Positions 37,415 through 43,673 of a stretch of DNA of 64,000 nt are shown one piece after another (position 1 is the stretch's first letter; every line of letters begins with the position of its first letter). The notes beneath the pieces were generated by a model. It did not search any database. It was not told the origin of the DNA and was given only the letters and a program-made list of their open reading frames with translations. The position numbers and the translations under genes were made by a program. The DNA comes from a bacterium 1xD42-67 (GTDB taxonomy: Bacteria; Bacillota; Clostridia; Oscillospirales; Oscillospiraceae), in the NCBI GenBank assembly GCA_003612335.1, contig RAYO01000010.1, forward strand, positions 62,001 through 126,000, given 5' to 3'.

Positions 37415-37495
37415 ATCGAAGAACACCGCAGGGAGCGGGGAGGCGTCCGCTCTGTCGGGAGGGGCGCCTACGACTATGGAGAGAAGGGATGCTTG

Positions 37496-38296
37496 ATGAA
37501 ACAACACAAAAAGGGCCTGGCGCTGTGGCTGGCAGCGATCCTGCTCCTGTTGGCCGGCGCACTGCTCACCGGGTCGCCGGGCCGGACGGAGAGCGTGCAG
37601 GCCGCTATGCGGGACGCCGTGCTCCACGATGTGAACCGGATCGGTCTGTTCGGTCTGGGGGATGTGAGCCCCGGCCTGATCTCCGCCTTCGTGGTGACGG
37701 CTTTCCTGCTGATCCTGGCGGTCTGTCTCCGCCTCTTCGTCATCCCCAAGTTCCAATACGTCCCGGGAAAGCTCCAGCTCCTGCTGGAGGAGTGGGTGGG
37801 CCTGTTCGATAGGATGGCCCGGGGCAGCAGCCCCCACCGCCACAGCTTTTTGGGCGTGTATATCTTTTCCGCCGGTACTTATATCTTCGTGGGCACCCTC
37901 TTCGAGCTGCTGGGGCTCCAGGGGATCACCGTCCATGGCCACCCCATCACCCTGCCCGCCCCCCTGTCCGACGTGAACGCCGCCATCGCCCTGGGCACCC
38001 TGTCCTATCTGTTCATCCTGGCCGGCGGGATCGTGGGCAACGGGGCAAGAGGGATGGGCAAGACCCTGAAGGAGTTCTCCCTGCCCCTCTCTATGAGCTT
38101 CCGTCTCTTCGGCGCTCTGCTCAGCGGCCTGCTGGTGACGGAGCTGGTCTATTATTTCGTCAGTCTGAGCTTCGTCCTGCCGGTGGTGGTGGGGGTGCTG
38201 TTCACCCTGCTCCACGCCCTGATCCAGACCTACGTGCTCACCATGCTGACAGCGATGTACTACGGCGAGGTGTCTGAACGGCCCCACAAGGCCTGA
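37496..38296 (+). CDS. atpB: F-type ATP synthase subunit a
   Basis: 266 residues, membrane subunit that carries the half channels of Fo. The key helix shows SMSFRLFGALLSGLLVTELV with the essential Arg (about 202); the Asn common after RLFG is Ala here. The N-terminal hydrophobic segment LALWLAAILLLLAGALL may be a signal anchor. The start is ATG 37496 after AAGGGA; a TTG lies one codon earlier. First gene of the operon; no atpI precedes it. Confidence 0.93.
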   Translation: MKQHKKGLALWLAAILLLLAGALLTGSPGRTESVQAAMRDAVLHDVNRIGLFGLGDVSPGLISAFVVTAFLLILAVCLRLFVIPKFQYVPGKLQLLLEEWVGLFDRMARGSSPHRHSFLGVYIFSAGTYIFVGTLFELLGLQGITVHGHPITLPAPLSDVNAAIALGTLSYLFILAGGIVGNGARGMGKTLKEFSLPLSMSFRLFGALLSGLLVTELVYYFVSLSFVLPVVVGVLFTLLHALIQTYVLTMLTAMYYGEVSERPHKA

Positions 38297-38335
38297 CTGC
38301 CCGGCCGATCTGATGTTATTTGGAGGTAATCTGCC

Positions 38336-38713
38336 ATGAACAAGCTGACTCGAATGAAAAAGATCCACGCATCCATCCTGGCCCTGCTCCTGGCCCTGGC
38401 CCTTGCGGTCCCCGCCTTTGCCGCCGCAGCCCCCAGCGGGGACGCCCCGGCAGACACCACGGCCGCTGAGGAACAGGACGGTGGCTCCATCATCGGCATG
38501 AAGTCCATCGCCGCCGGCCTGGCCATCGGCCTGGCCGCCTGCGGTGGTGGCATCGGCATGGGCCTGGCTACCGCCAAGTCGGCGGAGGGCATCTCCCGTC
38601 AGCCTGAGGCCGAGGGCAAGATCCGGACCATGATGATGCTGGGCTTGGTCTTCATCGAGACGGCCATCATCTACGCCCTGCTGGTGGTCATCCTGATCAT
38701 CTTCGTATTGTAA
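38336..38713 (+). CDS. atpE: F-type ATP synthase subunit c with N-terminal signal-peptide-like extension
   Basis: 125 residues instead of the usual 70-90. Residues 52-125 are a normal hairpin of two helices with the RQP loop (88-90) and the ion-binding Glu108 in [12 protein letters not shown]. Residues 1-50 form a basic, hydrophobic segment ending in VPAFAAAAP, a convincing signal peptide, plus a short acidic stretch. The residue aligned with the sodium-binding Gln of known Na+ c-rings is Met75, which argues for protons; Tyr113 is kept. Confidence 0.93.
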
Positions 38714-38728
38714 AGGCAGGTGGAGGAG

Positions 38729-39214
38729 ATGCCGCTGAATATCGACCTGCAGCAGATCCTGCTGCACTGGATGAATCTGGCCATCCTCACCGGCGGACTG
38801 TACTTCCTGCTGTATCAGCCGGTGAAGAAGTTCATGGAGGAGCGGGAGGAACACTACCGCAGCCTGGATGAGGAGGCCGCCGCAAAGCTGGCCCAGGCCG
38901 AGCAGGTCCGTGCCGAGTACCAGGCCAAGCTGGACGGAGCCGACGAGGAGATCCGTCAGGCCAGGGCCAAGGCCCAGCAGTCCGCCCAGCAGTCCGCCCA
39001 GGCCCTGCTGGATCAGGCCCAGGCCCAGGCCAAACAGATCGTGGCCCACGCTCGGGCCGACGCGGAGCACAGCCGGGAGCAGGTCTTGAAGGAATCCCAG
39101 CGGGAGCTGCGCCGGCTGGCCACTGCCGCCACCAAGAAGCTGGCCTTCCAGGCCGACCCCTTCGACCAGTTCCTGGACTTAGCAGAGGGAGGAGACAAGC
39201 ATGAGGACAGCTAG
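38729..39214 (+). CDS. atpF: F-type ATP synthase subunit b
   Basis: 161 residues. One membrane helix (about 10-28, WMNLAILTGGLYFLLYQPV) is followed by a long Ala/Gln/Glu-rich coiled coil (about 40-140), the outer stalk. ATG 38729 is taken as start; GTG 38720 is possible. The C-terminal tail ends normally, without a delta domain fused to it, which matters because no separate delta gene follows. It overlaps the next gene by 14 bases. Confidence 0.93.
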   Translation: MPLNIDLQQILLHWMNLAILTGGLYFLLYQPVKKFMEEREEHYRSLDEEAAAKLAQAEQVRAEYQAKLDGADEEIRQARAKAQQSAQQSAQALLDQAQAQAKQIVAHARADAEHSREQVLKESQRELRRLATAATKKLAFQADPFDQFLDLAEGGDKHEDS

Positions 39215-40961
39215 AGGGAAGCTGACAGCGGAGCTGCGCAGCGCCAAGTCCCCCACTGAGGAACAGCTCCAGCGGTTCGGCGCCTTCCTGGCCCGGACCT
39301 ATCAGCGCAAGGTCCCCCTGCGCTGGGAGGAGGACCCCTCCCTCAAATCCGGATTCCGCCTGCAGGTGGGCTCCGACGTCTATGACTGGACCCTCAACGG
39401 CCGGGTCCGGCAGTTCCAGGACTACCTGCGCCAGATCCAGCCCGGCCAGGAGGACCTGCTGCCCCTGATGCACCAGGCCGTGGCCGACTGGGAGCTGGCC
39501 ATCGTCCCCGAGGAGACCGGCGAGGTGCTGACGGTGGACGGCGAGATCGCCACTGTCAGCGGGCTGGACCATATCCAATATGGAGAGGTGGTCCTCTTCC
39601 CCTCGGGGATCCGGGGGATGGTCCAGGACCTGCGCCGGAAGGAGCTGAGCTGCATCCTCTTCGGCAGCGGAGAGGAGATCTCGGCGGGCAGTCTGGTCCG
39701 CCGCACCAAAAAGACCGCCGGGATGCCGGTGGGCGACGATTTCCTGGGCCGGGTGGTAGACGCCCTGGGCGTCCCCATCGACGGGAAGGGCCGCATCCAG
39801 GCGGAGGGCTATCTGCCCATCGAGTCCCCCGCCCCTGGGATCCTGGACCGCCAGCCGGTGGACACCCCTATGGAGACCGGCCTGCTGGCCATCGACTCCA
39901 TGTTCCCCATCGGCCGGGGCCAGCGGGAGCTGATCATCGGCGACCGCCAGACAGGCAAGACCGCCATCGCCCTGGACACCATCCTGAACCAGAGGGGGAA
40001 GGATGTGGTGTGCATCTATGTGGCCATCGGCCAGAAGACCAGCTCGGTGGCCCAGTTGGTGGAGAACCTGTCCCGCCGGGGGGCCATGGAATACACCTGC
40101 GTGGTCAGCGCCCCGGCCAGCGCCTCCGCCGCCCTGCAGTACATCGCCCCTTACGCCGGCTGCGCCCTGGGGGAGCACTTCATGCGCCGGGGGCGGGACG
40201 TGCTCATCGTCTATGACGACCTGAGCAAGCACGCCATCGCCTACCGGGCCCTGAGCCTTCTGCTGGAGCGGTCCCCTGGGCGGGAAGCCTACCCCGGCGA
40301 CGTGTTCTACCTCCACTCCCGGCTGCTGGAACGGGCCGCCCACCTCAGCGACGAGCTGGGCGGGGGCAGCATGACCGCCCTGCCCATCGTGGAGACCCAG
40401 GCGGGGGACGTGTCCGCCTATATCCCCACCAACATCATCTCCATCACCGACGGACAGATCTTTTTAGAGCAGGACTTGTTCTTCGCCGGCCAGCGCCCCG
40501 CGGTCAACGTGGGCCTGTCCGTCTCCCGGGTGGGGGGCGACGCCCAGACCAAGGCCATGAAGTCCGCCGCCGGGCCCCTGCGCCTGGAGCTGGCCCAGTA
40601 TCGGGAGATGGAGGTGTTCACCCAATTCTCCAGCGACCTGGATGAGGCCACCAAGCGCCAGCTGGCCTATGGCCAGGGGCTCATGCGCCTGCTGCGCCAG
40701 CCCCAGTGCTCCCCCTGGTCCCTGCACCAGCAGGTGATCCTCCTGGTCACCGCCATGGACCGCGTGATGCAGGACGTCCCCCTGGACCAGCTGGAGCGGT
40801 TCCGCGCCGGCCTGCTCTCCGCACTGGAGGAGGATGCCCCCGACCTGTGCCGCCGAATCGACATGACCGGCCTGCTCTCCGCCGACGACCGGGGAGAGAT
40901 CCTGGCCCTGGCCAGAGCCTTCCTGGAGGACTTCCAGTCCGGCAGGGAACGGGGGGCATGA
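39201..40961 (+). CDS. atpA: ATP synthase delta (C-terminal domain)-alpha fusion protein
   Basis: 586 residues, about 80 longer than normal alpha. Residues about 8-75 match the C-terminal, b-binding part of delta: PTEEQLQRFGAFLARTYQRK and DPSLKSGFRLQVGSDVYD, then NGRVRQFQDYLRQ. A complete alpha subunit follows from about residue 80 (VADWELAIVPEETGEVL, Walker A GDRQTGKT at 247-254, VGLSVSRVGGDAQTKAM). GGAGGAG before the ATG fits one continuous product. The N-terminal six-helix part of delta is absent here and elsewhere in the operon. An internal ATG (39468) is 14 bases from AGGAGG and would cut into alpha's N-terminus. Confidence 0.93.
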   Translation: MRTARGKLTAELRSAKSPTEEQLQRFGAFLARTYQRKVPLRWEEDPSLKSGFRLQVGSDVYDWTLNGRVRQFQDYLRQIQPGQEDLLPLMHQAVADWELAIVPEETGEVLTVDGEIATVSGLDHIQYGEVVLFPSGIRGMVQDLRRKELSCILFGSGEEISAGSLVRRTKKTAGMPVGDDFLGRVVDALGVPIDGKGRIQAEGYLPIESPAPGILDRQPVDTPMETGLLAIDSMFPIGRGQRELIIGDRQTGKTAIALDTILNQRGKDVVCIYVAIGQKTSSVAQLVENLSRRGAMEYTCVVSAPASASAALQYIAPYAGCALGEHFMRRGRDVLIVYDDLSKHAIAYRALSLLLERSPGREAYPGDVFYLHSRLLERAAHLSDELGGGSMTALPIVETQAGDVSAYIPTNIISITDGQIFLEQDLFFAGQRPAVNVGLSVSRVGGDAQTKAMKSAAGPLRLELAQYREMEVFTQFSSDLDEATKRQLAYGQGLMRLLRQPQCSPWSLHQQVILLVTAMDRVMQDVPLDQLERFRAGLLSALEEDAPDLCRRIDMTGLLSADDRGEILALARAFLEDFQSGRERGA

Positions 40962-40962
40962 T

Positions 40963-41853
40963 ATGGCCGGGACCAAAGAGATCAAGAGCCACATCGAGAG
41001 CGTTCGGGAGACCCGAAAGATCACCAACGCCATGTATCTCATCGCCTCCACCAAGCTGCGCCGGGCCCGGGCGGAGCTGGACAACACCCGCCCCTATTTC
41101 CAGGCCCTGCGCAGCGAGATCAAACGGATCTTCCGCACCGCCACCGACGTGGACAGCCGCTATTTCTTCCCCGCCGGCGACGATTCCCCTCTGCCCGGGA
41201 CCTATGGCTGTCTGGTGATCACCGCCGACAAGGGGCTGGCCGGGGCATATAACCAGAACGCCATCCGAAAGGCGCTGGAGCTGCTGGACCAGCACCCGGA
41301 CACCAAGCTCTTCGTCGTGGGGGAGTTCGGCCGCCGGTCCTTCGCCCAGCGGAACATACCGATCGAGCAAAGTTTCCTGTATACCGCCCAGAACCCCACG
41401 ATGGCCCGGGCCCGTGAGATCAGCGCCCGGCTGCTGGACGGCTTCCACCGGGGGGAGCTGACCGAGATCTTCGTGGTCTACACCGATATGGCCGGCGCCA
41501 TGTCCTTCCAGGCCAAGTCCGCCCGGCTGCTGCCCTTCCACAGGACCTATTTCGCTGCCGACGGGGAACGGACGGCGCAGGAGCCCTTCGAGCTCTTCCC
41601 CAACGCCGGGGCGGTGCTGGACAACATGATGCCCAGCTATGTCTCCGGCTTCATCTACAGCGCTCTGATCGACAGCTTCTGCTGTGAGCAGAACGCCCGG
41701 ATGAGCGCCATGGACAGCGCCGACCAGAACGCAGAGAAGCTGCTGGGCGACCTGTCGCTGGAGTATAACCGGGTCCGCCAGTCGGCCATCACCCAGGAGA
41801 TCACCGAGATCTCCGCCGGGGCCAGGGCCCAGCGCCAAAAGAAAGGAAGATGA
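40963..41853 (+). CDS. atpG: F-type ATP synthase subunit gamma
   Basis: 296 residues, the central rotor shaft. The N-terminal helix has KEIKSHIESVRETRKITNAM, and the C-terminal helix SLEYNRVRQSAITQEITEI is the other half of the coiled coil. GCLVITADKGLAGAYN lies in the Rossmann-like middle. It starts one base after the delta-alpha stop. Confidence 0.96.
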   Translation: MAGTKEIKSHIESVRETRKITNAMYLIASTKLRRARAELDNTRPYFQALRSEIKRIFRTATDVDSRYFFPAGDDSPLPGTYGCLVITADKGLAGAYNQNAIRKALELLDQHPDTKLFVVGEFGRRSFAQRNIPIEQSFLYTAQNPTMARAREISARLLDGFHRGELTEIFVVYTDMAGAMSFQAKSARLLPFHRTYFAADGERTAQEPFELFPNAGAVLDNMMPSYVSGFIYSALIDSFCCEQNARMSAMDSADQNAEKLLGDLSLEYNRVRQSAITQEITEISAGARAQRQKKGR

Positions 41854-43262
<1,409 letters not shown>

Positions 43263-43263
<1 letters not shown>

Positions 43264-43673
43264 TGGAGCCCTTCCAGGTACACATCCTGGCCGCCGACCG
43301 GACCTTCTACGAGGGGCCCTGCCTCAGCCTGACCATCCCTGTCAGCGACGGAGAGCTGGGCATCCTGGCCCACCACGCCAGTATGATCGCCGCCGTCGTC
43401 CCCGGGACCCTGCGCTGGCAGGCCCCGGATCAGCCGGTGCAGCTGGCCGCCGTCTCCCCCGGCATGGTGAAGGTGGAGCATAACGACGTCTTGGTCCTGG
43501 TGGACTCCGCCGAGCGCCCCGAGGAGATCGACGCCGCCCGTGCCCAGCGGGAGGCCGACGAGGCCAGAGAGGCCCTCCTCCAGAAGAAGAGCCGGCAGGA
43601 GCACCAGATCGCCCAGGCCACCCTGGCCCGGGCCCTGAACCGCCTGCGCGTGAAGGCCAGAGGGGTAGATTGA
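43263..43673 (+). CDS. atpC: F-type ATP synthase subunit epsilon
   Basis: 136 residues. N-terminal beta sandwich (FQVHILAADRTFYEGP, GELGILAHHASMIA) and a C-terminal pair of helices with Glu/Arg-rich sequence (about 85-135). It begins at the ATG inside TGATG at the beta stop. Last gene of the operon. Confidence 0.95.

Follow-up and report, generated by a model that had tools for sequence, protein, structure and literature searches.

In ordinary F-ATPases, one delta subunit links one b2 dimer to F1, and its N-terminal domain lies axially above the three alpha N-termini, where it meets the alpha N-terminal helix. We analyzed a window of 64,000 nucleotides (contig RAYO01000010.1, positions 62,001 to 126,000) from the Oscillospiraceae bacterium 1xD42-67, in which the alpha gene of an F-type ATP synthase operon begins with the C-terminal domain of delta (deltaC). 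The gene is probably best explained by a natural F-ATPase with several outer stalks, as judged from its sequence and from analogy with an engineered enzyme. Positions below are those of the window.

The engineered enzyme is the closest described system. Ueno et al. (2025) removed the N-terminal domain of delta in Bacillus PS3 FoF1 and fused the rest to alpha (PMC12229609; PDB 9jc1). The deltaDeltaN-alpha enzyme held as many as three b2 stalks and as many a-subunits, with an H+/ATP ratio of 5.8 vs 3.0, and it was concluded that the axial delta N-terminal domain limits the number of stalks to one (PMC12229609). The number of ions per turn was given as the number of c multiplied by the number of a, and the abstract describes the F-type ion/ATP ratio as varying through c-ring size (PMC12229609). 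The Discussion also reports natural delta-alpha fusions without the delta N-terminal domain in Acidaminococcus fermentans and in UniProt entries G4Q3K6 and A0A1I2C5T3 (PMC12229609). An engineered and a natural case are therefore in print, and the sequence-only reading of the window, which knew of no described delta-alpha fusion, needs correction on this point. The study of Ueno et al. was the sole paper on such fusions recognized among the matches listed in our literature search of PMC, with most subscription journals outside the search.

The window protein resembles the PS3 construct in that deltaC is joined to the alpha N-terminus by a short linker, in that no free delta is present, and in length (586 vs 580 amino acids, aa). 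The construct is man-made and its epsilon C-terminal domain was removed, whereas the window protein is natural and its epsilon matches both Pfam domains. The anatomical features that define the construct, namely an in-frame deltaC on alpha, an absent delta N-terminal domain and no detectable free delta, were all found in the window or its genome. A. fermentans, a negativicute, belongs to another lineage. Its protein is likewise a natural deltaC-alpha fusion, as PMC12229609 states, and is likened to that of the window by description only.

We also compared the locus with stators of other types. In mycobacteria, the b-delta fusion is present in one copy per enzyme, and alpha is separate. The window deltaC matches this protein (PDB 7jg5 chain d) at E 2e-4, and in both cases deltaC is carried by another stator subunit. 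Mycobacterial b and delta form a separate chain of 445 aa, whereas the window b is a separate gene of 164 aa, so that b and delta do not share one protein here. V-ATPases, which have one membrane a subunit, would resemble the window enzyme in having three stalks round one catalytic head, if the multi-stalk reading holds. They differ in that their stalks are built of subunits E and G (PMC6131620). b-delta fusions are known in mycobacteria and in N-type ATPases (PMC5709465, PMC11738941); the latter are described as having no delta and a longer b (PMC5706428), with the gene order beta-epsilon-XX-a-c-(b delta)-alpha-gamma (PMC11738941). As in N-type ATPases, free delta is absent from the window, and its deltaC matches the tail of the N-type b family TIGR03321 (E 4e-4). 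Assignment to the N-type was rejected, as the gene order differs and alpha scores 612 bits against TIGR03324, below the cut-off of 750.

Anatomy of the deltaC-alpha gene

The fusion gene (39201..40961, forward strand, as are all features below) is a single frame of 586 aa with an ATG start. In the scan for start codons and Shine-Dalgarno (SD) sequences, an SD-like AGGGAGGAG (39186..39194) was found 6 bases ahead of this ATG, and the start of the gene overlaps the 3' end of the b gene by 14 bases. Pfam OSCP (PF00213) matched aa 2-75 (39204..39425) with an E-value of 5e-10 and 40.1 bits (cut-off 22.3). This match covers profile positions 97-171 of 172, indicating that only the C-terminal, b-binding part of delta is present and that the delta N-terminal domain is absent. 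NCBIfam atpA (TIGR00962) matched from aa 84, at profile positions 5-497 of 503, with 702.8 bits, above the equivalog cut-off of 484 for F-type ATP synthase alpha. The matched part (39450..40961) is a complete alpha, whose barrel, nucleotide-binding and C-terminal domains were all recognized by Pfam behind OSCP. It begins with the alpha N-terminal helix region (aa 84-104; 39450..39512), which evolves faster here. Thus, three statements of the sequence-only reading were borne out: that alpha carries the delta C-terminal domain at its N-terminus, that the extra residues are the b-binding part of delta, and that the N-terminal domain of delta is missing.

The host genome is a draft of 3.56 Mb in 120 contigs, 97.97% complete. 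No second OSCP was detected in it at E up to 10, the single match being the fusion, although in a draft a gene in an assembly gap is possible; the earlier statement that no free delta gene exists was upheld to this extent. A search with AtpA likewise gave one match, the fusion, and no second F-type alpha.

In the AlphaFold2 prediction, deltaC has the order strand-helix-strand-strand-strand-helix, with block means of the predicted local distance difference test (pLDDT) of 79-90 over aa 11-80. Among solved sequences, 9jc1_I (580 aa) matched aa 12-566 of the window protein at its residues 8-567; it ranked sixth by E-value and was the only one of the 60 listed that was matched through both deltaC and alpha. 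The fold search, ranked by E-value, put the three chains of the 9jc1 construct in the first three places, at about 46% identity.

Spread and history of the fusions

We searched 400 genomes of the family, many of the searched genomes being drafts, with a query across the junction (alignment A1, 17 sequences). Matches at E up to 1e-40 were found in 241 of the 400, and the junction was read through without a stop in at least 106. Among the latter, 32 frames were of at least 735 aa, 14 of 655-734, 54 of 560-654 and 6 shorter; these length classes are rough, as frames run from stop to stop or to the contig end. Fused genomes made up 67 of 394 in a sample of the order, which partly covers the same family, and 17 of 398 in a sample of the phylum (counted by eye, with one cut frame and the genome of the window among them). 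The fusion is common in the family, and the order and phylum samples indicate that the arrangement is not restricted to this lineage. Among the best 80 of 591 stretches in a collection scan, the nearest named records were metagenome-assembled genomes of Oscillibacter sp., Clostridiales and uncultured Clostridia (L051-L053).

Architectures were labeled from profile matches, frame length and reading. The 82 labeled fused frames, window included, comprise 50 deltaC-alpha forms, 12 with a full delta before alpha (full delta-alpha), 18 triple fusions (b'-deltaC-alpha) and 2 others. The delta profile exceeded 8 bits in 41 of the 50 deltaC-alpha frames, and the other nine (L053, L057, L144, L145, L156, L157, L158, L167, L170) were labeled by reading. 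Among the full delta-alpha forms, L024 matches only from profile position 69 and was labeled after its near relative L023.

The triples (L025-L032, L035, L064, L133, L134, L142, L146, L147, L152-L154) are 737-815 aa long, except L035, which is cut by the contig end at 635 aa; L064 is in the named record Ruminococcaceae RUG13294. The b profile matched 12 of the 18, and the other six (L032, L134, L146, L147, L152, L154) were labeled from a hydrophobic N-terminal segment (Kyte-Doolittle mean >2) and a charged arm before deltaC. When ten fused frames were submitted to Pfam, all five triples among them had ATP-synt_B, OSCP and alpha above the cut-offs. A separate b frame lies just upstream in all 18 triple loci, with weak profile scores in L032 and L134 (14 and 17 bits). 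The model of L064 consists of a long helical arm, deltaC and alpha, the arm being of low confidence (block means 37-53 over the first 130 residues). Two further arrangements were found: L036:2523-4565 is a deltaC-deltaC-alpha form with two OSCP stretches before alpha (Pfam), and L034:1842-4358, which sits in the triple-fusion clade of the alpha tree, encodes b'-deltaC in one gene (a frame of 244 aa) and deltaC-alpha in the next, so that its operon holds two deltaC copies.

Each of the 18 family genomes for which frames of 747-815 aa were listed had exactly one OSCP match (E up to 0.01). In an AtpA search of 50 fused genomes, 44 had a single match, a frame of fused size, and 6 had two; in one of these (G740) both matches are fused, at 586 and 743 aa. 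An unfused alpha from a second gene is therefore not general. Several triple rows of this search contained a single stop, which was the terminal stop in both rows placed by coordinates (G102, G169).

The genomes of the window's own genus (G000, G310, G370, G396, G128, G189, G039, G237, G275, G342) differ in fusion state: four have deltaC-alpha size (592-618 aa), one has a full delta-alpha, one has a free delta, and four gave no match at 1e-40. The alphas of G128 and G189 lie on a different branch of the alpha tree from that of the window, pointing to the replacement of entire F-ATPases or to their differential loss.

The careful alpha tree, built on 68 rows, places the window in a supported crown of 13 deltaC-alpha rows (100/92), and the larger clade around it (38 rows) also holds free-delta and full delta-alpha forms. 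The triples and the deltaC-alpha forms of other classes branch apart from this clade in the best tree. The fused or free state needs 6 changes on the careful tree; the full delta-alpha state needs 8, at least 6 of them forced by starred branches. These 8 changes suggest that fusion events and losses of the N-terminal domain, or the reverse steps, occurred repeatedly. In the approximately unbiased test, a single clade of all 51 fused rows was rejected (p 1e-51), which is what the nested free-delta rows would force. Joining the Clostridia group to the other-class group (p 0.097), or the other-class group to the triples (p 0.075), was not rejected at 0.05; for the Clostridia group and the triples (p 0.55), the constrained tree was slightly better than the free one. 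Because these pairwise unions were not rejected, we claim no number of fusion origins.

The Discussion of Ueno et al. and the other passages considered make no mention of full delta-alpha, double-deltaC or triple forms (PMC12229609). Neither these forms nor the spread in Clostridia was found in the literature search, within the bounds given above. As far as the searches go, the spread in Clostridia and the full delta-alpha, double-deltaC and b'-deltaC-alpha forms are new. The exact form in the window is not new, since a fusion of this type has been noted in A. fermentans; the novelty lies in the broader range of forms rather than in the window's own deltaC-alpha.

Number of stalks per enzyme

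Since the window protein aligns with the 9jc1 construct over aa 12-566, we take its enzyme to be a natural multi-stalk F-ATPase. The gene product would be a natural version of the deltaDeltaN-alpha subunit and would provide three equal docking sites per F1, one deltaC on each alpha. One c-ring could then be surrounded by as many as three b2 stalks, every stalk having a subunit a of its own, and the operon's genes for a, b and c would supply the parts. More than one a-subunit would raise the ion/ATP ratio, which would permit ATP synthesis at low ion-motive force or the pumping of many ions per ATP. All of these points are inferred, from the binding of b2 at each deltaC and the numbers of a-subunits and stalks to the higher ratio and its role in physiology. 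The sequence-only reading had raised the puzzle of a deltaC on each of the three alphas; the puzzle stands, and the engineered equivalent gave up to three stalks, but three occupied stalks in the native enzyme are inferred.

The triple fusions are the strongest point among the new forms. With three alphas in each F1, such an enzyme would carry three arms anchored in the membrane, and each arm would have a free b as its partner; a single-stalk enzyme could then arise only with most of the arms cut off or left unused. These proteins make the three-stalk question directly testable by structure, as a single stalk needs two of the three arms to be cut, idled or not made. Clostridia may have evolved, in steps that are still visible, F-ATPases with a stator arm on every alpha: free delta, full delta-alpha, deltaC-alpha, deltaC-deltaC-alpha, and b'-deltaC-alpha with a separate b. 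The triples would be obligate three-stalk enzymes, having three arms of the b/b' type and probably as many a-subunits, the ratio would be raised by architecture and not by c-ring size, and the window would represent the deltaC-alpha stage. We offer this scenario, taken as a whole, tentatively and at slightly below an even chance. F-type enzymes are described with one outer stalk. A natural enzyme with up to three, if true, would add a second way to vary the ratio, would bear on how anaerobes live when the ion-motive force is low, and would offer natural counterparts to an enzyme so far seen as an engineered construct that lost part of its stalks during preparation.

Several points weigh against a multi-stalk enzyme. 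The support for the window enzyme is at the level of sequence. Even the engineered enzyme averaged about two stalks, and its ATP-driven pumping was lower (PMC12229609). AlphaFold2 gave a weak model for the window protein as a whole (mean pLDDT 61.5; predicted template modeling score 0.43; nine-row alignment), only deltaC being confident. TM-scores in the fold search were only 0.35-0.37 (by query), with a root-mean-square deviation near 23, so that its ranking is largely sequence-driven and carries no information on stalk geometry; the N-terminal 102 residues alone match other delta chains better than 9jc1 (E 1e-4 vs 0.023). The operon has one a and one b gene, and no search was made for a device raising their output. 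Full delta-alpha fusions exist (12 of the 82 fused frames by labels), and three delta N-terminal domains cannot share the axial seat; fusion alone therefore need not mean three stalks. The alpha N-helix gives a mixed result. At matched core identity of 68-76%, its mean identity was 0.46 in free alphas, 0.34 in the deltaC-alpha crown, 0.14 in deltaC-alpha forms of other classes, 0.26 in full delta-alpha and 0.18 in triples, in pairs that are not independent. Lower conservation in fused alphas is expected if the helix has lost its partner, the delta N-terminal domain, or if that domain has been displaced, but it is also seen in full delta-alpha, which keeps that domain; this fits several stalks only if the domain is displaced there.

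An enzyme with a single stalk and idle deltaC copies would accommodate some of these observations. Only one b2-a unit would be bound, as a and b would be limiting or the c-ring would have room for one, and the fusion would merely replace an easily lost subunit. The single a and b genes fit this explanation, as do the full-length fusions, in which at most one axial N-terminal domain can seat. However, stalk recruitment by the engineered fusion averaged about two (PMC12229609), the alpha chain of the triples itself includes a hydrophobic segment of membrane type, and 70 of the 82 fused frames are without the delta N-terminal domain by their labels. We consider a single stalk unlikely, though it retains a real share of the probability. 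An ordinary single stalk would also result if internal initiation or clipping near Met90 gave one deltaC-alpha and two plain alphas. An in-frame ATG is present there (39468..39470), which the sequence-only reading named as a possible start of alpha, and an SD-like match precedes the internal start in some relatives (e.g., L033, L138, L179; 7 of 18 triples). No SD-like match was found at 39468, whereas the start at 39201 has one. Across the fused frames, a start codon with SD occurred at the alpha junction in 24 of 82 (14 of 50 deltaC-alpha, 7 of 18 triples, 3 of 12 full, 0 of 2 others) vs 319 of 980 background 35-codon stretches and 21 of 24 genuine free-alpha starts, the true-start stretch differing in width from the others. 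Signals for a second, unfused alpha product are thus not enriched at the junction of these 82 frames over background.

The ratio of nonsynonymous to synonymous substitution in deltaC was 0.18-0.51 over 15 pairs of six close relatives, vs 0.08-0.22 in the alpha core, by simple counting with silent sites near saturation in some pairs; these values indicate that deltaC is under purifying selection. Together with the missing SD, this selection disfavors an alpha start at Met90, neither excluding it outright, and we regard the mixture of fused and plain alphas as quite improbable. The faster evolution of deltaC relative to the alpha core would suit a fused domain that no longer binds b and has taken another role, such as assembly factor or regulator. 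This is still less probable, since deltaC remains above the OSCP cut-off and is kept across a wide range of genomes, and no free delta was found to take over its role. Finally, no point was found in support of an assembly or frameshift artefact joining two genes, a concern also noted in the sequence-only reading. The uninterrupted junctions in at least 106 of 400 family genomes, the named records L051-L058 and two one-contig genomes with an uninterrupted fusion (G370, of deltaC-alpha size, and G128, full delta-alpha) rule it out for practical purposes. A natural multi-stalk F-ATPase remains our preferred reading.

Operon, host genome and subunit c

The operon (37493-43673) has the order a-c-b-(deltaC-alpha)-gamma-beta-epsilon by Pfam on seven frames, as first read from the sequence; this is the F-type order a-c-b-(delta)-alpha-gamma-beta-epsilon with the free delta replaced by the fusion. 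Upstream of the fusion lie atpB for subunit a (37493..38296; 267 aa; ATP-synt_A, E 4e-17; TTG start as listed, the exact start being unsure), atpE for subunit c (38336..38713; 125 aa; ATP-synt_C at aa 58-121) and atpF, the sole b gene seen in the operon (38720..39214; 164 aa; GTG start as listed; ATP-synt_B, E 6e-15). Downstream are atpG for gamma (40963..41853; ATP-synt, E 2e-83), atpD for beta (41860..43263; TTG start as listed; ATP-synt_ab, E 7e-72) and atpC for epsilon (43260..43673; GTG start as listed; ATP-synt_DE_N and ATP-synt_DE).

Elsewhere in the host genome (G000:C11:66607-68795 and G000:C34:21969-22598), two frames of 673 and 463 aa resemble the A and B subunits of a V/A-type ATPase by size and arrangement, and a further PF00006 protein of 442 aa is an unclassified ATPase. 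Two rnfC matches above the cut-off (C108, C25) fit life on small ion gradients and are given as context only.

As read from the sequence, the window's subunit c is extended at its N-terminus by about 50 aa that resemble a signal peptide. Frames of at least 120 aa occur in most crown-group loci, apart from L054 and L141 (70 and 76 aa), and similar long c frames were seen in L033, L036, L051-L053, L138, L169 and others. Short c frames are found in full delta-alpha loci, in free-delta relatives near them, and also in L132 and L171, two basal deltaC forms. When the last 85 residues were compared across loci, c of the triple loci mostly had (G/A)QG in helix 1 and EALTIYG or EALAIYG in helix 2, and c of the window's group was without the helix 1 Gln of the triples and had a different helix 2 motif. 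On our reading of the c ion-site motif, the coupling ion may differ between the triples and the window's group.

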